Shown one piece after another: positions 4,472-25,283 of a DNA stretch of 25,677 nucleotides. The notes under the pieces are model-generated. The model made no database searches, had not been told where the DNA came from, and saw only the letters and a list, made by a program, of their open reading frames with translations. The position numbers were made by a program, and so were the translations under genes. Each line of letters begins with the position of its first letter. The stretch's first letter is position 1. This stretch comes from a virus. Where the stretch lies: positions 1-25,677 of the IMG/VR virus record IMGVR_UViG_3300010318_000041, one strand, 5' to 3'.

Positions 4472-4743
4472 TTTAAATTCTCCAGTACAGAATCACCTCT
4501 TCTTTTTAATTGAGATTCTTCTCTATCTTCAATAATTTCTACAATGTTTCTGTCTAACTCTGTTGCTTTTGCTTGCACTCCATTGTCAACAACTATTTTG
4601 CTTTTTTGAGATGGGGAAGAGAGATGGCGAACCATCCTCTCTCCACATACACATTCTATGTTATCTTTTATATTACTAGAAGATTTATAAAACTTTTTTG
4701 TTATTGCAGCACAATGTCCACAAGCATAGACTATTCTTGGCAT
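4468..4743 (-). CDS. FmdB-like small zinc ribbon protein
   Basis: 91 residues. The N-terminus MPRIVYACGHCAAI carries C8-x2-C11, and a second cysteine pair C31-x-C33 (ECVCGERMVRH) completes a zinc ribbon. The layout (MPxxxYxCxxC, a Ser-rich linker, then CxCG with a following VRH) resembles FmdB-type putative regulatory zinc ribbons. The second half is charged and helical. Its ATG overlaps the ClpP-like gene stop (TAATG), so the two are translated from one mRNA. Its function is unknown; nucleic-acid or protein binding is inferred from the fold. Confidence 0.65.
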   Translation of the reverse strand: MPRIVYACGHCAAITKKFYKSSSNIKDNIECVCGERMVRHLSSPSQKSKIVVDNGVQAKATELDRNIVEIIEDREESQLKRRGDSVLENLK

Positions 4744-5735
4744 TACATTTCCGAAATAAAGTTGCTAAAACTCATTTTGACAATATTTCTTTTGCTATTT
4801 GCAATTTTGGCTTTTTGCTCTTTAATTGTTTGCTCAATTTTTTCAAGAGTAAGCTCTTTGTCCATCAAACAAAGCTCTGCTTTTTTAGGCCCCTGAACAA
4901 TTTCGTTATTCCAACCTATTTTGGCTTCAGAATCATTTTCCCTGCATTTTTTACCAAATTTACCACTTTTTGCCATAAAGTCATCAAGCAATACATATCC
5001 TTTATTAGTTCTCACAGAAGCCGTGACACTTACAGGGTATGTTCTAATTGGGCAATTGTCAAAGCTTAATTTTAGATTAAAGCCAAAGTATCTAATGTTT
5101 TTACTGTTAACCCCTACCAAACTTTGACCGCATTTAACAGAAACCACTTCGTCTGCATACCCATTTCTTACAGCTTCATCTCCATTTAGCCATAGTTCAT
5201 TATCATATTCTGACTGATATTGCTTAAGGGTTTTTTTGCCGTTAGTTCTATCGACTGTTTGTTGATCCATCATCCCAAGTCTTCTTAACCATAGACCGTA
5301 TCTAGAATCAATCTGGCTGTTTCCACCACCAAATTCCCCTCTAAACCCACCAGATGCTTTGTGACTCATGAGAACGCCATATTTTAAAATATATCTTTTT
5401 CCAAGGTGTTGTACAAGCTGAAATCCCATAGAAGCTGAAAAAAGAGTTACAGTATGAATAGGTCTATTAAGGCCTTGTAAAAATTCAATAAGCTCAAGCC
5501 CAGCCTGAATGCTTCCACCCGGAGTGTCCAAAAACAAATAGATAGGATATCCACTTTTAAGGTCTGCATTCATTTTTTTAGCCTGACCAATCAGTTTAGA
5601 AACAGAACTTCCGGTAAAAGCATTGTTCAATACAAGAGTGTTATCTTTGGTTAAGGTAATTTCTTTTTTTGAAATTTCTGCTGAGTTAACTGTTAACGAA
5701 ATAGCAAGCATTAGCATTGCAATAAATAGCCTCAT
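4743..5735 (-). CDS. Secreted ClpP-fold serine protease
   Basis: 330 residues. Residues 1-19 form a Sec signal peptide (Lys/Arg-poor but with R2, a hydrophobic core LFIAMLMLAISL, and a cut near VNS-AE). There is no lipobox Cys. The ClpP fold follows: oxyanion strand LDTPGGS (69-75), nucleophile in ASMG (S102), catalytic His in LMSHKA (H125), and an EYDNELWLNGDEA segment aligning with the ClpP Asp region (D178 the best candidate, its register offset by about two residues). The C-terminal third (200-330) is not ClpP. It contains C202, C228, C264 and C289, which could form disulfides outside the cytoplasm, and ends in a charged helix. AGGAG sits five bases before the ATG, and a promoter-like TGATATTAT lies at 5770-5778. 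Cytoplasmic ClpP-like prohead proteases normally lack a signal peptide, so a periplasmic role is inferred. Confidence 0.85.
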   Translation of the reverse strand: MRLFIAMLMLAISLTVNSAEISKKEITLTKDNTLVLNNAFTGSSVSKLIGQAKKMNADLKSGYPIYLFLDTPGGSIQAGLELIEFLQGLNRPIHTVTLFSASMGFQLVQHLGKRYILKYGVLMSHKASGGFRGEFGGGNSQIDSRYGLWLRRLGMMDQQTVDRTNGKKTLKQYQSEYDNELWLNGDEAVRNGYADEVVSVKCGQSLVGVNSKNIRYFGFNLKLSFDNCPIRTYPVSVTASVRTNKGYVLLDDFMAKSGKFGKKCRENDSEAKIGWNNEIVQGPKKAELCLMDKELTLEKIEQTIKEQKAKIANSKRNIVKMSFSNFISEM

Positions 5736-5806: not shown

Positions 5807-6445
5807 TTAATTTTCTTTTTCTTTTTCTTCTTTATGTTTAACTAATGCCTCCAAAATAGTTCCTGTATTTCCCGGTTTAATTTCTAACGTATTTTCATTT
5901 ATTTGCGTTAGCGTAGCACCATCTGAAGCATTTACATTAACATTCATATTTGAACCACTACCAGTTTTTACATTAGTAGGATTGAGAATTTTTTCTAATA
6001 ATTCAATACTTTTAAAATACTGACTAAGTTGTTTGAGGTCTAAATTCTCAATAATCGTTCTGTCTCCAGTTCTGAGATATTCATTCATTTCTTCGCCGTA
6101 GTATTTGTGGTGAACACTAATAAGATTGGCAATAAAATTGAGGCTTTCTACTCTAGTGTCGGTCAGTTTTTTTACCATATTTTTTTGAATATCGCTAAGA
6201 TACTCCATGCGTTTCTCATACCATTTTTGCTTGGCCGACATATATAGAACTAGGTCTTTTTTTACTCTGGAGATTTTACTTATTTCTACATAAGTCTTTC
6301 CAGCCATATAAAGGCCAAATAGCCCATTTACCTTATGCTCGTCTTTAACCAGACTTTCAAGTCCAACACAACCGTTGTCAACAAATGTATTAATTTTTTT
6401 AACTTCTTCATCTGTAAAGTCATTGTCAATTTTACTTAAATCCAT
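5807..6445 (-). CDS. Helix-turn-helix-like phage protein (possible small terminase)
   Basis: 212 residues. Residues about 40-75 (LFGLYMAGKTYVEISKISRV and the segment after it) look like the resolvase-type helix-turn-helix seen at the N-terminus of many small terminase subunits. A long helical segment (75-155) with KWYEKR and HHKYYGEEM follows, then a Ser/Gly/Asn-rich linker and a short beta/acidic C-terminus. Small terminases have this order: HTH, oligomerisation helices, flexible tail. However, the large terminase is 12 kb away and no diagnostic residue proves the assignment. The ATG overlaps the preceding stop (TAATG). Alternative: another HTH-containing replication or virion-assembly factor. 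Confidence 0.6.
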   Translation of the reverse strand: MDLSKIDNDFTDEEVKKINTFVDNGCVGLESLVKDEHKVNGLFGLYMAGKTYVEISKISRVKKDLVLYMSAKQKWYEKRMEYLSDIQKNMVKKLTDTRVESLNFIANLISVHHKYYGEEMNEYLRTGDRTIIENLDLKQLSQYFKSIELLEKILNPTNVKTGSGSNMNVNVNASDGATLTQINENTLEIKPGNTGTILEALVKHKEEKEKEN

Positions 6446-9923: not shown

Positions 9924-12476
9924 TTACACCTTTATAAATTTTATTTCATTTGTTGTTTCTTTATACATAGAAAGTCTTTTTTGCAAATGATTTTCTAAAA
10001 GACTTATGTTGCTTACTCTAAAATCATAAATTTTTGAATAAGGCTTGGGCTTGTGATAGCCCTTGTATTTACTGTTTTCAAGAATACGGACACTTCTACC
10101 AACAGCCCCCTGCTTAGTTCTGGTTTCAGAACCGCCGCCAACCCAATTTATAGTATTGTGTGTGCAGTACATATTTGTTCCTGTTGCAATACAGCTTGTA
10201 CCAATAAGAACTCTTACTTGTCCAAGGTTGAAGGCCTCAACTGCTTCATCGACTTTTCGAGTTTCCAAACCGAATTTAGCAGCATCAGCCTTTGATGCAG
10301 AATGTACATATTCAAAGGGAACATTTAACCTGTCAACCAACATCCTAATCTGTTCCAATTCCTCCACCAAGATTAATGTTGATTCCTGAGCTTGATTCCA
10401 AGCTGAGTTAGCAATTTTAGTCGCAATATCGGCAATGTTTGGGTTGTACAAAAATTGTTTTCTTTTGGCTTTTAGTGGGTCTGTATAGTTCTTACTGTCT
10501 CTGCTTGTAGTTTCAAAAACAAAAAATTTTACTGGACAAATGTACCCACCATCTACGGCTTCTTTTGTTGTTAATTTATATACTTTTTTACCAATAATAG
10601 ATTCTAATAGTTTATCTTTACCATCACCTCTAACCTGAGTACCTGACAAGAAGAAGCGATATGGAACGGCGTTTAGTACGCCATGAAATACTGTTTCAAG
10701 AGTTTCAGCCGCAAGTGTGTGAGACTCGTCACCAATTACTACATCAGCATTGGCAAAAAAATCAAAAGCCTCAGTACCCGGCTTGAGCATCGTAAGTGAT
10801 TTTGATACACATACTGTGAAAAGTTTACCTAATTTTTTCTTACCAGCTCCATAGGCTCCAACATTTGATTTTCCAAAATGGTGCTCAAACTTTTCTAAAA
10901 TCTCTAAAAAAATAGATTTACTAGGAGTTACAATAACTGTTTTAAGCCCTAGCTCACGGGCTAGGGTTAAAATAATAGCTGTTTTACCCGAATTATGAGT
11001 TACTGTAAAATCATTCATTACATATAAATTATCACAATCAACTTCAAAACCGAAGTACTCATCTTCTGGTAGCTCTTCAACTTTAAAGCCAGTTCTTAGT
11101 ACATTTTTTATTTGTTTTCTTGGTCGAGCTTTTTTTCTTTCCAATAAAACAGGTATTCTATTTATATCTCCAGAAATTGTAACTTTATAATAAATACCTT
11201 CAGTTCCATTTTGAGATTTCTTTTTTTCTTCTTTTTGATATGCGGCAAACCCCAAAGACCTTGCGATAAAAAGTATGTCATCGGATAGTTTTTTATTTTT
11301 TTGAGTAATTTCGTAGTAGTTATTACCTAGATATCCATCTGAATCTATTAAACCAGCCAAAACTTTTAATCTACTTTCTTCAGAATTTATTTTAAAATCT
11401 TCTGGAATGTGTTTGTTGTATATTAAATTATAATGTTTTAAATTATTTCTTAATACATTCAGACCCATGCCTCTTAGTGGGTTATATATATAAAAAGTTT
11501 TTGCCAGATTGTTTTCTGATATAACCTCTTTTCTTACATTCAGTCCTAGTTGTCCTGCGTATTTAACCCATTCATCTTCTAATTTTTTATCCATCGTTGT
11601 TAAAGAAGGTCCGTCTGAACTACCATCACCTAGCCATAGTCCTAAAATATATGGGTCTATTGCGGTTAATCTACCTTCAAAGTTAATACCTGTTCTGTAT
11701 AATTTATATCTATGTTTAAATGATTTTGTCTGTTTTAAATAGTCTTTAACAGAAATGTTTACAACAGGATTTGCACCTTTAAAGTCTTTTCTTCTCTTTT
11801 TATCTTCAGTTCTATATTGCGATTGATTGTTTGTTTTTTGTAAAGATAAAATATGCCCCATATTTACAACAAAAAAATCTCCTTTAACAGGTATTATTTT
11901 TGCCATTTTTTCTTTGCCTCTGTGTAGTTTTAAAACTTTACGAGGTTTCGAGTCTGGCCCCATTAAAAAATCTCCTACTTTAACATCTTCTACTTTTTTT
12001 AAAGAACCGTTGTACATTAAAATTTCCTGACCTTTAGCGTGACACCCCGTACAAAGCTCTACACAGCCATGTTTTGCTTGAATAAGACGTTCTACAGATT
12101 CTTTCTGGTATGGATATAGCTCAAATGGCAAAGTTTTTCTCCATGGCATTTTGCGTGGCTCTGGGTAGCTAATACGGTTGTGTATATCAAAACTATACCC
12201 AGACAAATATGGTAAAGAACCCGGATGAAAAGCCAATTTTTGGTTAGAATCTAGTGTTAGCATACAAGTTTTTAATTTAGATTCTAGTTCTTTCTTTCTC
12301 AAATCATAAGTATGGGGCTTGTTTTGCTGTAACCATCTGTTTTTTTTAAGTTTTTGCAAAGCAAATTGGGCTGACGTATCACTATAAGTCAGGCTTTTTT
12401 TCAAATCATCGACAACTTCCCTATTGGGAGTTTCGAGGTAACATTTGGTTGGATTTTCTATCGTAATCTTTATCAT
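9924..12476 (-). CDS. UvsW-like SF2 helicase with LAGLIDADG intein in the P-loop
   Basis: 850 residues from ATG at 12476 (MIKITIENPTK). A GTG at 12494 is in frame but lies inside the promoter-like element. The host protein is an SF2 DNA helicase: Walker A ELCTG/SGKTAI split by the intein, Walker B GDESH (D589-H592 in numbering from the GTG), motif III LSGT, and motif VI around KQGAVGRSVRIL. An unusual roughly 125-residue N-terminal domain precedes the helicase core. UvsW in T4 unwinds R-loops and branched DNA, switching replication mode. Without the intein the protein is about 499 residues, the usual UvsW size. No Shine-Dalgarno is seen before the ATG, and the -10-like element ends about nine bases before it. 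It heads the run of genes down to 5807. Confidence 0.92.
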   Translation of the reverse strand: MIKITIENPTKCYLETPNREVVDDLKKSLTYSDTSAQFALQKLKKNRWLQQNKPHTYDLRKKELESKLKTCMLTLDSNQKLAFHPGSLPYLSGYSFDIHNRISYPEPRKMPWRKTLPFELYPYQKESVERLIQAKHGCVELCTGCHAKGQEILMYNGSLKKVEDVKVGDFLMGPDSKPRKVLKLHRGKEKMAKIIPVKGDFFVVNMGHILSLQKTNNQSQYRTEDKKRRKDFKGANPVVNISVKDYLKQTKSFKHRYKLYRTGINFEGRLTAIDPYILGLWLGDGSSDGPSLTTMDKKLEDEWVKYAGQLGLNVRKEVISENNLAKTFYIYNPLRGMGLNVLRNNLKHYNLIYNKHIPEDFKINSEESRLKVLAGLIDSDGYLGNNYYEITQKNKKLSDDILFIARSLGFAAYQKEEKKKSQNGTEGIYYKVTISGDINRIPVLLERKKARPRKQIKNVLRTGFKVEELPEDEYFGFEVDCDNLYVMNDFTVTHNSGKTAIILTLARELGLKTVIVTPSKSIFLEILEKFEHHFGKSNVGAYGAGKKKLGKLFTVCVSKSLTMLKPGTEAFDFFANADVVIGDESHTLAAETLETVFHGVLNAVPYRFFLSGTQVRGDGKDKLLESIIGKKVYKLTTKEAVDGGYICPVKFFVFETTSRDSKNYTDPLKAKRKQFLYNPNIADIATKIANSAWNQAQESTLILVEELEQIRMLVDRLNVPFEYVHSASKADAAKFGLETRKVDEAVEAFNLGQVRVLIGTSCIATGTNMYCTHNTINWVGGGSETRTKQGAVGRSVRILENSKYKGYHKPKPYSKIYDFRVSNISLLENHLQKRLSMYKETTNEIKFIKV
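10992..12044 (-). mobile_element. Intein with LAGLIDADG homing endonuclease
   Basis: A 351-residue in-frame insertion starting at Cys (CHAKGQEILMYNGS, block A) and ending VTHN (block G). The next host residue is Ser of the P-loop (SGKT). Block B is NMGHILSL, block F is FGFEVDCDNLYVMNDFTVTH. Two LAGLIDADG helices are visible: YILGLWLGDG (about 282-291) and VLAGLIDSDG (378-387), both with the catalytic acidic residue. All splicing residues (Cys1, penultimate His, terminal Asn, Ser+1) are present, so it should be splicing-competent, and the endonuclease also looks intact. Insertion in the Walker A loop of an ATPase is a common intein site because it is highly conserved. Confidence 0.93.
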
Positions 12477-12483
12477 ATAACTA

Positions 12484-12489
12484 TATAAT
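12484..12489 (+). promoter_or_regulatory. Candidate -10 (TATAAT) for the endolysin gene
   Basis: The same AT-rich sequence reads TATAAT on the plus strand, 23 bases before the endolysin ATG at 12512, with AAGGAGAG as ribosome binding site between. No -35 is recognisable. The two divergent genes may share overlapping promoter sequence. Confidence 0.3.
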
Positions 12490-12493
12490 ATCA
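12485..12493 (-). promoter_or_regulatory. Candidate extended -10 promoter before the UvsW-like helicase
   Basis: The minus strand reads GTGATATTATATAG (TG-n-TATTAT). A transcript from this site would start near 12478, two bases before the ATG at 12476, so the helicase mRNA would be nearly leaderless, in line with the absence of a Shine-Dalgarno. The 15-mer TGATATTATATAGTT is identical at 21958-21972 before the chaperonin gene. No -35 consensus is visible. Confidence 0.5.
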
Positions 12494-12511
12494 CAAAAAA
12501 AAGGAGAGATT

Positions 12512-12931
12512 ATGTCTTTTAAATATAGTGCCAAATCTCTAGCAAAATTAAATACTTGCCACCCAGATTTGCAAAAAATACTTAAAAAAGCAATAAAACA
12601 CTATGATATCACTATCTTAGAAGGTGTTCGTACCAAAGAATGCCAAGAAGAGCTAGTTCGTACCGGTATGTCAAAAACTATGGACTCTAAACATTTGAAA
12701 CAAGCTGATGGCTATTCTCATGCCGTTGACTGTGCTCTTTGGCCGGTTGATTGGAATGACCGTGATAGGTTTGTATTTCTACAAGGTTATCTCAAGGGTT
12801 TAGCTGACCAAATGAAAGAAGCTGGTGAAATTAGCCATTCTCTTCGCCTTGGTGTAGATTGGGACGGTGATGGTAATATCAAGGAACATTCTTTCTTTGA
12901 TGGGCCTCACATTGAGCTTTCTTTGAAGTAA
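12512..12931 (+). CDS. M15-family peptidase endolysin
   Basis: 139 residues and the only convincing plus-strand gene. The fold is that of the zinc-dependent M15 (D-Ala-D-Ala / L-Ala-D-Glu) peptidases used as phage endolysins. ILEGVRTKECQEELV is the conserved early segment. DSKHLKQADGYSHAVDC supplies the SxH...AxD zinc ligands (H61 and D73, H70 nearby), and FFDGPHIEL supplies the third His (H133) and a neighbouring Glu. The length is typical for a single-domain M15 endolysin such as that of T5. There is no signal peptide or SAR segment, so it would need a holin. AAAGGAGAG precedes the ATG. The 3' end overlaps a minus-strand membrane-protein gene by 53 bases. Confidence 0.9.
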   Translation: MSFKYSAKSLAKLNTCHPDLQKILKKAIKHYDITILEGVRTKECQEELVRTGMSKTMDSKHLKQADGYSHAVDCALWPVDWNDRDRFVFLQGYLKGLADQMKEAGEISHSLRLGVDWDGDGNIKEHSFFDGPHIELSLK

Positions 12932-13091: not shown

Positions 13092-13218
13092 AATTATGCC
13101 CTGCCCAATTTATTTTTTCTGCAATTGAACCTTTTTTATTACAGGCTTGTTCTTCAATATAATTTGCACCTAAAATAACAAGTAATATAAGTACAAATAC
13201 AACTATAGCACTTTTCAT
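13081..13218 (-). CDS. 45-residue single-pass membrane or secreted peptide
   Basis: A short ORF: ATG at 13216-13218 forms a TAATG overlap with the preceding stop and ends TAA at 13081. It begins MKSAIVVFVLILLVILGANY and continues with a polar tail of about 25 residues containing C26 and C43. The hydrophobic segment 4-17 with a Lys at position 2 suggests an N-in signal anchor, placing the Cys-containing tail in the periplasm. It is the fifth gene of the helicase/cytochrome operon and overlaps the next one. A spanin-like lysis role or a periplasmic partner of the cytochrome are both conceivable; neither is shown. Confidence 0.55.
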   Translation of the reverse strand: MKSAIVVFVLILLVILGANYIEEQACNKKGSIAEKINWAGHNCEK

Positions 13219-13544
13219 TAATAAACTCCAACTTTAGCTTTTGGATGCTTGGTACAGTCTTTTCTAATTCTTTTTAGAAAATTTAAAGCACCTTCATAGT
13301 CACCCCACCCATTTTCGGGGTTCATTGCTCTATATTTTTCTGGGTCAGATTCCATTTTATTAATTGCAATGTTTAAATGTTTAATAGCATCTTCACAACC
13401 CATTTGGTGAAGCCCTCTAAGACCCTCTTCTAAATTGAAAGAATTGTAATACATTGGCGATACATTATAAGTGTAATTTCCACACTCTTCTACAGAAGAA
13501 TCTTCAATTCCAGTATTGATTATAATATCTACATCCCAACTCAT
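13218..13544 (-). CDS. Conserved phage protein of unknown function (MSWDV family)
   Basis: 108 residues beginning MSWDVDIIINTG. A Cys/Asn/Tyr-rich core (ECGNYTYNVSPMYY), the segment GLRGLHQMGCEDAIKHLNIA and the signature NPENGWGDYEGALNFL are all clear. I recognise this overall pattern (SWDV..., TYNVSPMY, NGWGDYE) as a small family that recurs in phages and bacteria without known function. No signal peptide, so cytoplasmic. The ATG overlaps the cytochrome gene stop (ATGA), so it is co-translated with it. Confidence 0.7.
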   Translation of the reverse strand: MSWDVDIIINTGIEDSSVEECGNYTYNVSPMYYNSFNLEEGLRGLHQMGCEDAIKHLNIAINKMESDPEKYRAMNPENGWGDYEGALNFLKRIRKDCTKHPKAKVGVY

Positions 13545-13831
13545 TTTAGTTTCTCCAAGTAATCTGCAAGTTCTTTAATTTCAGCATTTGTAAGTTTTTT
13601 TACAAATGGATACATTTTTTTTGAATGACCACTTGTACGTTTTTTATCTCGAATCAATTTAACCTGATCTTCAATGTACCATGCGTGTTGTCCGGCAAGT
13701 CTGGGGGCTTTTTGTGATTTTTTCCCTTCGGCTTTTTTTCCGTGACACGACATACATTTTCTTTTATAAAGTGAATTAGCATTTGCTGCCAAAGAAATAC
13801 TCATTAAAAATAGAAATAGACATTTAATCAT
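13541..13831 (-). CDS. Periplasmic class I cytochrome c (c4/c553-like)
   Basis: 96 residues. Residues 1-19 are a Sec signal peptide (MIKCLFLFLMSISLAANA). The mature part has the haem c attachment site CMSCH (C26-H30), then APRLAGQ, an aromatic helix (WYIEDQVKLIRDKKR), a distal Met ligand candidate M73 (KKMYPF) and the closing helix LTNAEIKELADYLEKL. This order is that of bacterial c4/c553 mono-haem cytochromes, soluble electron carriers in the periplasm; haem attachment would use the host Ccm system. A GGAGG sequence lies four bases before the ATG. It is co-transcribed with an SF2 helicase and small membrane proteins and overlaps both neighbours. A cytochrome c is highly unusual in a phage; acquisition from the host is inferred. 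Confidence 0.93.
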   Translation of the reverse strand: MIKCLFLFLMSISLAANANSLYKRKCMSCHGKKAEGKKSQKAPRLAGQHAWYIEDQVKLIRDKKRTSGHSKKMYPFVKKLTNAEIKELADYLEKLK

Positions 13832-14048
13832 TATGCCTCCAATGATCTTTAATTTTTACCAATCTATATCCTCTTTGTTCTTTTAAATGTTCTTTAATTT
13901 TTACCAATCTATATCCTCTTTGTTCTTTTAAATGTTCTTTAATTTTTTCTAAACCAATAATTTCTAATAAATTACCAACATTCATATCATATAAAACTGA
14001 ATTTTCAAATCTTTTTTTAAATTCTTTTAAAATCCCTACATCTGTCAT
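13824..14048 (-). CDS. Small protein with 15-residue tandem repeats
   Basis: 74 residues in an ATGA overlap with the helicase stop at 14045. The N-terminal half (MTDVGILKEFKKRFENSVLY and on) is helical. The C-terminal half contains two exact copies of IKEHLKEQRGYRLVK followed by a degenerate third (IKDHWRHND). The repeats are exact at the DNA level too (45 bp unit), so the duplication is recent. Each repeat is a basic amphipathic helix plus a short strand. No family known. The stop lies inside the cytochrome gene start region, so the two are co-translated. Confidence 0.6.
   Translation of the reverse strand: MTDVGILKEFKKRFENSVLYDMNVGNLLEIIGLEKIKEHLKEQRGYRLVKIKEHLKEQRGYRLVKIKDHWRHND
13836..13840 (-). 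promoter_or_regulatory. Strong Shine-Dalgarno for the cytochrome c gene
   Basis: GGAGG four bases before the cytochrome ATG, lying inside the end of the repeat protein gene. It supports translation of the cytochrome and the chosen start at the signal peptide. Confidence 0.65.
13846..13947 (-). repeat. 45-bp perfect tandem repeat, two copies plus a partial third
   Basis: Positions 13846-13890 and 13891-13935 are identical, and 12 bases of a third copy continue to 13947. The unit length is a multiple of three, so gain or loss of a unit keeps the 74-residue gene in frame. Confidence 0.95.
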
Positions 14049-15697: not shown

Positions 15698-17536
15698 CTA
15701 TTCCATATCTTCATCTAACATATCTTGTTGAAGCATTTTTAACATCTCAACAGCATCAGGCCTGTACGCAAAATATGCCTGAACAGCTTGAGGGTTTAAT
15801 TGCATCATCATTTCAATTTGCTGAAACCAAAAACCATCTCTTCTATATTTAAGTATTGGATCGACCATATAAGCAGGGTCAATTTTATGTCCCATATAAT
15901 TAGAAGTTTCAAGATATTTATCTACAACTACCTGATATCTTTCATTAAAATCAACTTTACCAGCTAAATGTTTTCCAACACTTTTTTTGTCAACATACTC
16001 AAGAATTTCATCCATATTCATGTGAATAGGCGCATCTTGCTGCAATCTCAATGCCTCATCCTGCCTAGTGTCAGCGTCAAGGCCAGAAAGAGTTATAGTG
16101 CAAATTTGAGCTAGTTCTGGATCAATAAGTGGGAATAGTTTTTCATTAATAAAGTCTTGAAACTTTAAAATTAATGGTCTAATACCAGTATCACGGGCCG
16201 CAGTAAGTTTATATTCATTATTTGCTTCTGATAGAGATTGTTGATTAGTACCTTTTGAAAGATGACCATAACCCGGTAGTTCATCAGGAGACATACCAAA
16301 AGCAGATAAGATATTTCTAGCAACAGAATCGTAAAGAAATTGAAATTCGCCATCTTTCTTTTGTTGATTCATTGGAACCCATTGCACATTATCTTCAGAA
16401 GATACACCAAAAATAGGTGTTCTAAACGAATTACCAACACTGTTAATTGACGCATTAAACTGTTGTTTAATACCTTCAATAGTGGCGTGGTCAATTTCAT
16501 CGGATTGAACCACAAGAATACCTTTTGTAGCTCTACCATTTGCAAAATAAAGCCTGTTATAGGTTTCAATTGAAATATGTGTTGTAACAGCTTGCATGAT
16601 AGTATCAAGCGGTGTTACCGGATATCCGTTATGCTCAATATCGGTTGAAGGATACAGGTTGCAAACAAACATTTCTTCTTGAGTAAAAGCTTGCCTTGGA
16701 GTACCTTCTAAAACCTGTATCCAAGAATAACTTCCAGCAAGAGCTGATTCAGGGTCAATTTTGTGACCGGTCATTTCCTCAAGAAGTTTAATAGATGAAC
16801 GCCTTACATCATCAGCATACTCACCTTGCTTAACTGCTTTATAAATTGTACCAGCATCAACCGGCCTAAATCTATGAAAAAATTTATTTCCAAAATCATC
16901 TTCTTCATATATTGCTTCTGTACAAAACCTGCCAAAAGATAATCCATTTATAGTTTGAACATAAAACCATTCTGAAATTGACATTTTATCTTCTGAAGAA
17001 ACACCTTCATTACTTCCACAGTTCATTAAAATATTTAATACACGATTAATTCTTTCGTGAATTTTAATTCTTTGATCTGGTTTTAGAATTTGTTCGTAAT
17101 CTTGTTTTATATTACACTCAACACCAATGTCAAACCTATCTTTTCTTACACGCCCAAACATAGACATTGTATTACCTCTAGCTCTTAAAATAGAAGCTAT
17201 AAGATGGTCTTCTTGTCTAATTCTTTTAATAGTCCAATCTGGAAGTAGGCGTTTTTTATTTTTAAAAAGACCAAAATAATTGTCTTTAGTTACCGGGTCT
17301 TCGGTAAACGCAATTCTAGGCACACTAGTTTTATTTACTTTTTTTAGCGAGCCTGATGAGAACCCAACTAAATCAGAAAGTGATTTTTCTGAGCTAAAAT
17401 TTGTATCATAAGATTTTTGAAGTTGTTCATTAATTTCATTTGATAAAGCAAATAAAGTTTTCTTTTTGGGTGTAGAATCCCGATTTTTTGCGATACGTTT
17501 TGCAAGTTTTTCTAAATCTTCTTTGTTATCAAACAT
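15698..17536 (-). CDS. Portal protein
   Basis: 612 residues with the HK97/SPP1-type portal pattern. The wing/stem region includes DWTIKRIRQEDHLIASILRA and a long helical segment. The segment FANGRATKGILVVQSDEID, then EGIKQQFNASINSVGNSFRT, VQWVPMN, QFLYDSVARNILSAFGMSP and the closing crown (MDEILEYVDKK) match the conserved C-terminal half of phage portals. The portal is the dodecameric ring through which DNA is packaged. The N-terminus (KKKTLFALSNEINEQLQ) is extended. Its position after the large terminase with one gene between them is the classic packaging module order. Confidence 0.9.
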   Translation of the reverse strand: MFDNKEDLEKLAKRIAKNRDSTPKKKTLFALSNEINEQLQKSYDTNFSSEKSLSDLVGFSSGSLKKVNKTSVPRIAFTEDPVTKDNYFGLFKNKKRLLPDWTIKRIRQEDHLIASILRARGNTMSMFGRVRKDRFDIGVECNIKQDYEQILKPDQRIKIHERINRVLNILMNCGSNEGVSSEDKMSISEWFYVQTINGLSFGRFCTEAIYEEDDFGNKFFHRFRPVDAGTIYKAVKQGEYADDVRRSSIKLLEEMTGHKIDPESALAGSYSWIQVLEGTPRQAFTQEEMFVCNLYPSTDIEHNGYPVTPLDTIMQAVTTHISIETYNRLYFANGRATKGILVVQSDEIDHATIEGIKQQFNASINSVGNSFRTPIFGVSSEDNVQWVPMNQQKKDGEFQFLYDSVARNILSAFGMSPDELPGYGHLSKGTNQQSLSEANNEYKLTAARDTGIRPLILKFQDFINEKLFPLIDPELAQICTITLSGLDADTRQDEALRLQQDAPIHMNMDEILEYVDKKSVGKHLAGKVDFNERYQVVVDKYLETSNYMGHKIDPAYMVDPILKYRRDGFWFQQIEMMMQLNPQAVQAYFAYRPDAVEMLKMLQQDMLDEDME

Positions 17537-18324: not shown

Positions 18325-20160
18325 TTATACATCAAAAAAAATACTCTTTTTTTCCTGTGATTTCCTTGACTTATGTTTTTGACCGCCTGTTAAGTCATTG
18401 ATTTTGTTTTGCAAATCTCTAGGTCTTCCTTTAATATTTTCAAGATCATAACTGAACAAAACTTTAGAGCCTTTACCAAACATACTATAAAAAAAGTATC
18501 TAATCATATCCATAATATCAGCAGTTCCATCTTTACCATGCTCTGGCTTACCATCAATAGGATTTCCCTTACCATCAAGTTTCCATTTATAAGTCTCAAA
18601 AGCATCAAAAACACGTTCATTATTACGTGTTTTTAGTACCTTAAAATGTCTATTATTGTTTGCATCTACAATTTTAGATTGAACAACAGTAATACCATCC
18701 ACAACAGATTCCACACCTTTTTTAACACCTATTGCCGGAATTTTACCTTGGGATGTTTTTGTTTTTCTAAGCATTTTAATATATGCTGGATAGTTCGAGT
18801 CACAAAACCATTTGTTAACCCTATATATTTCCGTAAGCTCTTTTACTTTTTGAACAATTTCAGGTATTTCCATGTCTGGAGCTGAAGTAATATCAACAAG
18901 CCATGATTTTCCACCAGCTATTTTGGCAAATACACCCAAAGAAGTTTCGTCAGTATTTCCCCAATCGGCAGCACCATAAAATTCAATTCCAAGATTGTGC
19001 ATAAATTGAACTAATTCATCTAGGGTCTTGCCCTCAACTTCTTCACCTGACAAATATTTCCAAGCTTCATCAATACTGATAGCATTATCAACAATATCAA
19101 ATCTAGGGTAAACAAGACCGCTAGAGCTTGGCTTGTTACACAATAGCTGTGCCTCACCCATTTCAGGCGAGGTTTGTTTAAAGTTATTGTGAACCGCATA
19201 GATAGGTTTATAAAGATCGCCTACATCATCTTGCGGTCGGTCTACAAGAGAGTTTTTCATAACCGATAACATCGGATGGTCAGCAATTCCCGAATAAACT
19301 TTTACCGCTTCATATTTATGTCTTGATTCTTCATTAAGTTCTTTAAACTCTTCAGGAGATAAATTTCTTAATGGAAGCTCCCTACCAACATATCTTGTTA
19401 CTTTTCCTTTATTTTTTTTGGCCTCTGATTCTGGAATACGTTCAGTCACATCAATAATGTTCCAACGTAAAATTTCTCCACCAGATCGTTCTGTATCTTT
19501 AAGTGTTTTCTCCATTAATCCACCGGCATACTTACGAGTGGAAAGATAGACGGTTAGCGGAAAATACCCTTTATAAACACACGGAATCATTTTTGCTTCT
19601 TCCAATGCTCTTGGGTCTTGAACAACATCTATCTCATCCATAAATAACATAGGCACATGTTCGCTGTTCATCCCGGCTACCGTAGCAACAACAATTCTTA
19701 AATAAATAGCATCACCTTTGCTGGTGAGCCATTCAATTTTTGCCTTACTATCAGACAGCTTTCGCCAGCCATTTGCTTCAAGATATGGCGATAGTTTTCT
19801 AAAAAACGAGTTAACGTATTGGATTGCTTTTTCTGATTGTGATTTAATCGCTGCACCGTGAGCAACGGATATTTCAAAATGAAGCATACATAATACTTCA
19901 ATAGCCGCAGCAGACAGAGTTTTATAGGAGTCACGGGAAGCAAGCATACAAACTTGTGGAACATCCCGACTATTACCCGTTTTCATCAACTCATAGATAC
20001 GCCACATGGCATCAACCGGGCCATGTGTAGAACCGGGATATACAACACCCATTGGAAACTTAATATCTAAAAAGATATGCATCCAATTTCTAAGTTCCTC
20101 TGGCCCATTCAAAGGCTTTAAAACTAGTTCGTTTTTTAGCTTTTCTATTTCTTCTGACAT
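18325..20160 (-). CDS. Terminase large subunit
   Basis: 611 residues. The N-terminal ATPase has a variant Walker A, ASRDSYKT (74-81), and Walker B MLFMDE (171-176) followed by IDVV. The C-terminal RNase H-like nuclease has its acidic residues in FYGAADWGNTDE (D399), WFCDSNYPAY (D454) and GTADIMDMIRYFF (D548/D551). The protein cuts concatemeric DNA and drives packaging through the portal two genes downstream. Asp/Ser/Tyr replace the usual Gly residues of the P-loop; RD-x-[FY]-K-[ST] variants are known among phage terminases, so activity is likely retained. The start shares a TAATG overlap with the chaperonin stop. Confidence 0.93.
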   Translation of the reverse strand: MSEEIEKLKNELVLKPLNGPEELRNWMHIFLDIKFPMGVVYPGSTHGPVDAMWRIYELMKTGNSRDVPQVCMLASRDSYKTLSAAAIEVLCMLHFEISVAHGAAIKSQSEKAIQYVNSFFRKLSPYLEANGWRKLSDSKAKIEWLTSKGDAIYLRIVVATVAGMNSEHVPMLFMDEIDVVQDPRALEEAKMIPCVYKGYFPLTVYLSTRKYAGGLMEKTLKDTERSGGEILRWNIIDVTERIPESEAKKNKGKVTRYVGRELPLRNLSPEEFKELNEESRHKYEAVKVYSGIADHPMLSVMKNSLVDRPQDDVGDLYKPIYAVHNNFKQTSPEMGEAQLLCNKPSSSGLVYPRFDIVDNAISIDEAWKYLSGEEVEGKTLDELVQFMHNLGIEFYGAADWGNTDETSLGVFAKIAGGKSWLVDITSAPDMEIPEIVQKVKELTEIYRVNKWFCDSNYPAYIKMLRKTKTSQGKIPAIGVKKGVESVVDGITVVQSKIVDANNNRHFKVLKTRNNERVFDAFETYKWKLDGKGNPIDGKPEHGKDGTADIMDMIRYFFYSMFGKGSKVLFSYDLENIKGRPRDLQNKINDLTGGQKHKSRKSQEKKSIFFDV

Positions 20161-24076: not shown

Positions 24077-24291
24077 TCTAACTCCAAATCTGGTAATCTT
24101 TTGGCGACTACCAAGCCAGTGCCATTACATTTGTTGCAAAAATTGTAGCCATAAAAACACTCTTCTTGACCCAATCTTTTGGCCCACTTTCCAAGCTCTA
24201 CTTCATCGGTTATCATTAATTGTACATTACCATAACCATCACAGGCTTTACAAGAGTCGTAATATTCAAATGGTAAATCGTACTCAATCAT
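24073..24291 (-). CDS. DnaJ-type zinc-finger small protein
   Basis: 72 residues with two CxxCxGxG motifs: SCKACDGYGN (near residues 14-21) and FCNKCNGTGL (near 52-59). These are half of the four motifs that make the DnaJ central zinc domain, which helps unfolded-protein binding. No J domain is present. The gene follows the AAA+ ATPase with overlapping start/stop and precedes the phosphoesterase. A protein-folding accessory role alongside the phage AAA+ and chaperonins is an inference; such modules are also used in RNA-binding and regulatory proteins. Confidence 0.65.
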   Translation of the reverse strand: MIEYDLPFEYYDSCKACDGYGNVQLMITDEVELGKWAKRLGQEECFYGYNFCNKCNGTGLVVAKRLPDLELE

Positions 24292-25283
24292 CCCATAAGA
24301 CCTAATTTCTTTTGAGCTTTTTGGAAAGCTCTTTCAATTCTTGCTTTGTGTTCTTTCATTTCTTGAATAACTTGGCCAAATGTTTTATCATGTAACTCAG
24401 CTCTAATTACAATCTCAGAAATATGGGCAATACTTAGACCATCGGCATCTTTACTTACAAGAGCATCTATTTCTTTTTCAGAAAGTTTTCTTTTAGCAAT
24501 ATAGGCACCAAGCTTAACTCTTTCTTCAGCATTTGGCCCTTCAAGTTCAAACATTTGGTCAAATCGGCCCGGTCTATCAGCCAGTGATTTTAAAAGGTTT
24601 TCTGGTGTATTGGTTGTTGCAATAATAAAAGTTGGTAGTCTAAAACTTACCGATGCACCATCAAGTAATTCTAGCAAGCTGGCATCAGCACCTTTTGGCC
24701 CATGATATCCCTCAGTATTTCCACCACCAATATCTTCCATTACAAATAACATTCTCGTACAGTCTTTTGAAAATTTTGAGCCAGTAGAAAGAAACTTACT
24801 TACTGAACTACTTCGTACATCAGATGTATCCCAAAATAGAACAACAGTTCCCTTATCTTCCTCGACAAATTCCCGACTAATCTTGGCAATTGTTGATGAC
24901 TTACCCATACCCGGCTGCGAATATAATAAAATAGAACGCTTAGGGTCTTTGTTGTATTTTTTATAGATGTCTAGTTTTTCAAAGAAAAGCTTAGATTCTT
25001 TCTTGATAAGCTGAGTGTTACTAGCTGACTCAAGAAGGTCATGGGTTTTAAGTTCTAGCTTTTTAGTCCTTACACCAGCAGAAGTATCTACTAAAGTCCA
25101 AATACCGGGTTTTATAGTAAACTTTTCCTTGTCTTGTTCTTCATCTTCATATTCAAATTGAATAATGTGAGTTGCTGTTTGGATACAAAGGTCAGACTCA
25201 GGAAGTTCTTTAACGCCGCCGTACTCAAGGTCTTCAATTTTTGTTCTTTGTAATAATTTAAATTTACCTAATTCTTCTGACAT
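24288..25283 (-). CDS. AAA+ ATPase, BCS1-like
   Basis: 331 residues. After an about 110-residue beta-containing N-terminal domain, the AAA+ core shows Walker A SQPGMGKSS (122-130), a Walker B of the BCS1 type with Glu-Asp (MLFVMEDIGG, E183, D184), Sensor 1 IIATTN, and the arginine finger/Sensor region LADRPGRFDQ. The helical lid (about 255-331) ends in a basic coiled-coil-like tail. BCS1/FtsH-like AAA+ ATPases remodel or unfold proteins. The start is 1 base inside the preceding stop (25283). With the DnaJ-type protein next door, protein remodelling is likely; a replication clamp-loader role is less likely because of the DRPGRFD motif. Confidence 0.88.
   Translation of the reverse strand: MSEELGKFKLLQRTKIEDLEYGGVKELPESDLCIQTATHIIQFEYEDEEQDKEKFTIKPGIWTLVDTSAGVRTKKLELKTHDLLESASNTQLIKKESKLFFEKLDIYKKYNKDPKRSILLYSQPGMGKSSTIAKISREFVEEDKGTVVLFWDTSDVRSSSVSKFLSTGSKFSKDCTRMLFVMEDIGGGNTEGYHGPKGADASLLELLDGASVSFRLPTFIIATTNTPENLLKSLADRPGRFDQMFELEGPNAEERVKLGAYIAKRKLSEKEIDALVSKDADGLSIAHISEIVIRAELHDKTFGQVIQEMKEHKARIERAFQKAQKKLGLMG

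Follow-up and report, generated by a model that had tools for sequence, protein, structure and literature searches.

Soluble electron carriers are uncommon among the auxiliary genes of phages and are best known from cyanophages. The closest parallels to the gene described here are cyanophage plastocyanin (petE) and ferredoxin (petF), which are likewise phage-borne soluble electron carriers. These are copper or iron-sulphur proteins of photosynthetic hosts, whereas the present gene encodes a covalent-haem protein and its host is apparently chemotrophic. The accessible sections of one account (PMC10452541) give cyanophage examples of soluble electron carriers as auxiliary genes and indicate that the plastocyanin of these phages could donate to cytochrome c oxidase, and the available portion of another (PMC5082946) deals with the transcripts of the host's cytochrome c oxidase when cyanophages infect.

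Haem-c domains or oxidase parts have also been described in phage-like sequence. SoxD was presented for viruses in two cases, both lacking the second haem motif and one also lacking the first (PMC8190135). Both ccoP and cydAB are named in a table of viral genes (PMC12713726), and cbb3 subunit I occurs in viral sequence, in a study that claims to be the first to show viral genes for cytochrome c oxidase in the marine environment (PMC3474794). In the passages available from these sources, viral SoxD, ccoP and cbb3 subunit I are enzyme subunits, and none is presented as a soluble carrier with one haem. A further study, as far as its accessible text goes, observed no cytochromes or similar electron carriers in its phages (PMC8115048). 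Our search of the literature, which took in Bdellovibrio phages, drew on sources available in part and had most subscription papers outside its range, turned up no phage reported to carry a soluble cytochrome c of class I. An earlier, sequence-only reading of this DNA had called such a protein rarely if ever reported; this holds for the soluble class I kind in the texts searched, with the qualification that SoxD, ccoP and cbb3 subunit I are listed as viral in the accessible parts of theirs.

Among solved proteins, the closest are cytochromes c4 and c553, which resemble the phage protein in sequence (E from 1.9e-17 for 1h1o to 3.8e-5 for 1dvh) and in fold. The sequence comparison returned 16 solved relatives at E 0.01 or better, headed by 1h1o, 8uf3 and 6q2u, all of the c4 kind, while 1dvh is a c553; the c4/c553 assignment of the sequence-only reading was thus borne out. 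The c4 label applies only as a likeness of sequence and fold. Cytochrome c4 is a two-domain protein, and the three solved examples, at 181-191 aa, each show two aligned haem domains, whereas the phage protein has a single CXXCH in 96 aa. Because it has one haem domain, the phage protein is not a c4 protein proper. A c553 is as short as the phage cytochrome, yet more distant in sequence.

The nearest cellular counterparts are short cytochromes c of Bacteriovoracia. The copy at L025, 53% identical in the best segment, belongs to the same family, with a single haem domain, a signal-like start and the invariant residues C26, C29, H30, M73 and P75. The short forms differ from the phage gene in being chromosomal, mostly near haem-attachment genes, and in being less basic on average (+5.5, 22 rows). 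What is new here is probably the use of a monohaem cytochrome c as an auxiliary electron carrier of a phage, with relatives that point to Bacteriovoracia as the host class.

The cytochrome gene and the phage gene run around it

The gene occupies positions 13541-13831 on the minus strand of the window, by which we mean the whole 25,677-nucleotide stretch of viral DNA that was analysed, and encodes 96 aa. The product matches the Pfam family Cytochrom_C at 48.7 bits against a curated cut-off of 21.3 (E 2.1e-12), and Cytochrome_CBB3 is also above its curated cut-off (E 6e-12). A CMSCH haem-attachment motif forms residues 26-30 (13742-13756, minus strand), and Met73 (13613-13615, minus strand) is the sole other Met beyond residue 19. 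Residues C26, C29, H30 and M73 are invariant in 9/9 rows of alignment A2 and 12/12 rows of A3, and Met73 is the likely distal haem ligand. The reading frame, the CMSCH site and the distal Met candidate had all been named from the sequence alone, and the profile match and invariant residues confirm them.

The AlphaFold2 model has a mean pLDDT of 85.6. In Foldseek, ranks 1-22 of 27 rows are titled cytochromes or haem-c proteins, with a probability of 0.98-1.00 and a TM to the query of 0.57-0.72; the lowest E was 2.6e-3 (probability 1.00), and none of the 27 rows fell below 0.001. Nine cytochrome families in NCBIfam were matched, none of them reaching its cut-off (the best, ccoP, scored 38.4 vs 179.95). 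Among PHROGs, the only match below 0.1 was phrog_8569 (E 0.032, function unknown), which fits the rarity of cytochromes among known phages. With a profile match above the cut-off, an N-terminal CXXCH followed by a later Met, and the fold, the ORF is, by sequence and model, a class I monohaem cytochrome c of c4/c553-like type, predicted to be haem-loaded and exported.

Residues 1-19 (13775-13831, minus strand) look like a signal peptide on visual inspection, as does the stretch in the copy of a clade mate, one residue different, under a crude script rule, and they have low pLDDT; the signal peptide proposed earlier therefore stands as a signal-like stretch, with export itself a prediction. A GGAGG ribosome-binding-like site lies at 13836-13840 (minus strand), with the ATG 4 bases on. 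It is present as claimed, and the earlier reading took it as a hint of good translation, but it does not single this gene out: GGAGG also precedes the genes at 24288-25283 and 5807-6445.

The cytochrome gene is encoded within a phage genome. On one side, and on the same strand, PHROGs matches identify a phage helicase (14045-15112; phrog_16, 1.7e-22, and also Pfam), a portal protein (15698-17536; phrog_12, 1.7e-17), a terminase large subunit (18325-20160; phrog_5653, 3e-11) and a phage GroEL (20160-21944; phrog_5725, 1.3e-85, and also Pfam). On the other side the run is bounded by an endolysin-type gene on the plus strand (12512-12931; phrog_465, 2.1e-37), and the order is the same in the related contig L003. 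The cytochrome ORF shares 8 bases (13824-13831) with a small upstream ORF (13824-14048, minus strand) and 4 bases (13541-13544) with a downstream ORF of unknown function (13218-13544, minus strand; phrog_4019, E 4.5e-13), in agreement with the few-base overlaps in a viral transcription unit noted before. The small upstream ORF contains a 15-residue internal duplication that is absent in the related contigs L002-L005, and in L006 it is replaced by other sequence.

Several other features of these genomes were observed. The terminase gene, uninterrupted in the window, is split in L003 into two overlapping ORFs (L003:1846-4095 and L003:4077-5552), the second of which opens with the C-terminal part of an intein (Pfam Intein_splicing, 4.4e-5, below cut-off); the interruption may be a split intein, and a similar terminase gap occurs in L002, L006 and L011. 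A second helicase in the window (9924-12494, minus strand) is interrupted by a LAGLIDADG intein (Pfam Hom_end_hint and Hom_end). The window also encodes a ClpP-like protein (4743-5735, minus strand) with a signal-peptide-like N-terminus and a match to the head-maturation protease family phrog_94, possibly an exported protease or else a relative of head-maturation proteases.

Occurrence, variation and selection among related phages

Five further IMG/VR contigs (L002-L006) carry the cytochrome gene in the same place, with 85-98% protein identity. The gene is thus found in 6/6 clade contigs that cover the place, window included; a seventh, L017 (4.3 kb), stops short of the position and is not among the six. 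The five other contigs come from five different metagenome numbers and have phage genes in common with the window on one or both sides of the cytochrome. An assembly chimera, which the sequence-only reading had named as one way its proposal could fail, or cellular contamination is refuted by these five contigs, and we give it practically no chance.

The frame is intact in all six copies, which differ from the window at up to 38/291 bases. Using our own Nei-Gojobori script on the mature part, and forming ratios only where synonymous changes exist, dN/dS was 0.155 for window-L004, 0.125 for window-L006 and 0.03 for L004-L006; the mature parts of window and L002 differ by a single change, which is not synonymous, and so give no ratio. 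The mature cytochrome is under purifying selection. In every comparison with L006 the signal part had changed more than the mature part, though not in window-L004.

The cytochrome also lies in a hot spot of divergence. Compared in 150-base blocks, the helicase keeps 93-100% identity to L003, L004 and L006, whereas the block 13612-13463, which runs from the final 72 bases of the cytochrome gene into the beginning of the next ORF, is 77% identical to L004 and 75% to L006, with 100% to L003.

By our own rule, the 129-kb clade mate has 166 ORFs. Two contain CXXCH, namely the cytochrome and an intein-bearing helicase, and no second c-type haem protein was seen among the 166. ARAGORN located one tRNA in the clade-mate pieces examined, with anticodon TCA (selenocysteine type) at L074:14825-14906.

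Further viral scans with patterns from A1, A2 and A3 returned the same five contigs alone; each scan used one or two short patterns, and other viral cytochromes c are possible. One candidate for a further carrier among annotated phages, MT836048 (L122), was rejected, having 29% identity and being the single match at E 1 or better. It is an unverified 'Bacteriophage sp.' faecal scaffold. Its 6.9 kb comprise, by eye, multicopper-oxidase-like and cytochrome-like ORFs, with no phage genes recognised in the same inspection, and it looks like a fragment of bacterial copper-handling genes.

A terminase search extended the comparison to six loci beyond the clade (L007, L008, L009, L013, L014 and L016), with terminase identities of 70-72%, apart from L014 at 81% and L016, which is at 69% by our own tblastn. 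In the stretches of these six loci examined, no CXXCH ORF of at least 50 aa was seen, save the intein-bearing helicase of L014, and the cytochrome profile matched 0/5 whole records (L014, L007, L009, L016 and L008), which may themselves be fragments. Since relatives without the cytochrome evidently manage, the gene seems to be accessory and particular to one phage clade. Among annotated phages, a tblastn with the terminase puts Myxococcus phage Mx1 closest (27% identity across 99% of the query, E 1e-62).

Cellular relatives and the probable host

A pattern scan of one genome per species (84,980 species) found 8 loci, the best of which, at 53%, is in a Bacteriovoracia MAG; the two patterns were drawn from the phage sequences, so the scan leans towards look-alikes. 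Within Bacteriovoracia, 75/129 genomes match the phage cytochrome at 1e-6, with a best score of 101 bits. Across Bdellovibrionota, 81/368 genomes pass 1e-8, of which 72 are in Bacteriovoracia and 9 among the other 239. In the phylum of G381 (a MAG titled Proteobacteria), 16 of 398 genomes sampled from that larger phylum pass 1e-11, with a best score of 70.1 bits. Many Bacteriovoracia matches are also below 70 bits, and the case for ancestry is carried by the top ranks and the trees.

The trees were built on 79 columns; the program flagged this small number and the meeting of long branches. Of the Bacteriovoracia matches they contain a top-scoring subset, since each genome search supplied DNA for at most 30 loci, and domains below 25 bits or without CXXCH were omitted. 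In the 80-row tree the phage copies form one clade (100/99) beside L045 of genome G068 (99/91), and SAR324 rows are placed among Bacteriovoracia. A 60-row tree omitted 20 rows, two of them Bacteriovoracia, that were long branches, SAR324 or a locus paired with such a row; only after this omission does a 100/100 split set the phage and Bacteriovoracia apart from the rest, and it fixes no place for the phage inside the group. We do not claim the phage as sister to L045, a grouping lost in the 60-row tree yet not rejected there (p-AU 0.457); nor is a position of the phage outside every Bacteriovoracia row rejected in that tree (p-AU 0.412). Apparently the phage cytochrome descends from a family with its strongest representation in Bacteriovoracia.

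The host class is probably Bacteriovoracia, as judged from the cytochrome together with the distant terminase likeness to Myxococcus phage Mx1, a hint in the same host direction. A provirus route to the host gave nothing further, with no terminase match in 368 Bdellovibrionota genomes in a search run without a positive control.

Thirteen host regions, chosen from the top matches, were drawn: 12 with the short form of the cytochrome (L086-L089 and L091-L098) and one with a long form (L090). ResB and/or CcsA lies a few kb from the short cytochrome in 10/12 short-form loci (L087, L088, L089, L091, L092, L093, L095, L096, L097 and L098, with ResB only in L096, which is cut). Neither was found in L094 (9.5 kb examined) or in L086, which holds a second copy in G068. 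Both are present with L025 (Pfam ResB 62 bits, Cytochrom_C_asm 105 bits), where TIGR03144 scores 149 bits, under its cut-off of 187.6. Over the class, ResB is above cut-off in 116/129 genomes, while CcmB is so in 10/129, all weak at 24-31 bits. With System II common and signs of Ccm scant in the likely host class, Ccs rather than Ccm would probably mature the phage cytochrome, which would correct the earlier assumption of a host Ccm system. COX1-family oxidases were found in 6/6 hand-picked genomes.

Longer Bacteriovoracia frames of about 160-195 aa also match and have a membrane-anchored look by eye; the phage has the short form only. The second short cytochrome c of G068 (L086:5662-8156) adjoins hemN, with a CRP/FNR-type regulator nearby, possibly a low-oxygen cluster in this one genome.

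Proposed role and alternatives

The cytochrome gene lies within a phage genome, has a metabolic-type cellular homologue and is kept by selection, as is expected of an auxiliary metabolic gene. We consider it reasonably probable that it is one, and that its product is a periplasmic c4/c553-like carrier of Bacteriovoracia ancestry that would serve terminal oxidases of the host, with export, haem loading, partners, benefit and host all being predictions. The gene would be transcribed with the phage gene run and coupled to its neighbours through the ORF overlaps. Sec would export the protein to the periplasm, where host System II (ResB/CcsA) would attach the haem, and electrons would then pass from a quinol-oxidising complex through the phage cytochrome to haem-copper terminal oxidases of the host. 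In this way proton-motive force and ATP supply could be sustained as the host's own transcripts and proteins dwindle. Support of respiration in the infected host, suggested earlier as one possibility, is in our assessment the likeliest role.

Through such a protein, phage control would reach the main respiratory chain of chemotrophs, and the dependence of a c-type cytochrome on a covalent-haem factory in the host makes for a sharp prediction about that host. A link to Bacteriovoracia would give a large phage, with a clade mate contig of 129 kb, a probable home among a class to which bacterial predators such as Bacteriovorax belong. One 96-residue protein could then serve to test whether phages sustain respiration.

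The net charge of the protein bears on what kind of carrier it may be. The aligned domain has a net charge of +13 in 4/4 phage rows, compared with a mean of +6 in Bacteriovoracia (35 rows, range -1 to 14) and +2.5 in 41 others; few domains of the family are as basic as that of the phage. Such a charge would fit docking to acidic oxidase faces. A more specific proposal, which we hold to be doubtful, is that in a phage of predatory-type Bacteriovoracia a basic carrier tuned to high-affinity oxidases keeps infected predators respiring at low oxygen after their own carrier supply stops; it would then be the first class I monohaem cytochrome c known to be encoded by a virus, and no virus that infects bacterial predators would have shown an auxiliary gene for electron transport before. 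The same charge could be read as host take-over, with the basic phage cytochrome competing for acidic docking faces and so redirecting or slowing respiration. The excess over the Bacteriovoracia mean and over the others is in keeping with such diversion of electrons. The host copy L045 is, however, equally basic (+14), so high charge is not a phage invention, and the haem and ligand residues are all retained, as in a working carrier; we regard diversion as unlikely.

The phage cytochrome might instead supply electrons to a cytochrome c peroxidase or to an oxidase of high affinity, and so protect the infected cell against peroxide or oxygen shortage. This idea draws on L045 in G068, whose core is the most phage-like: it adjoins hemN (364.7 bits vs a cut-off of 324.95), a CRP/FNR-type regulator (Pfam, above cut-off) is near and a RoxA-like di-haem protein is about 6 kb away. 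All of this comes from one genome, however, whose sister relation to the phage does not persist in the 60-row tree; the L045 contig has no COX1-family gene, and 10/12 short-form host loci have ResB/CcsA nearby instead. A stress or low-oxygen role is therefore, in our view, quite unlikely compared with general support of host respiration. It could also be argued that the gene is a passenger, gained from a host by recombination and functionless for the phage, given that 0/5 related phage records searched whole contain it and that it sits at the divergence hot spot, with a neighbouring ORF replaced in L006. Against this, the low dN/dS and the frame kept intact in every copy, despite the number of base differences from the window, make a functionless passenger very improbable.
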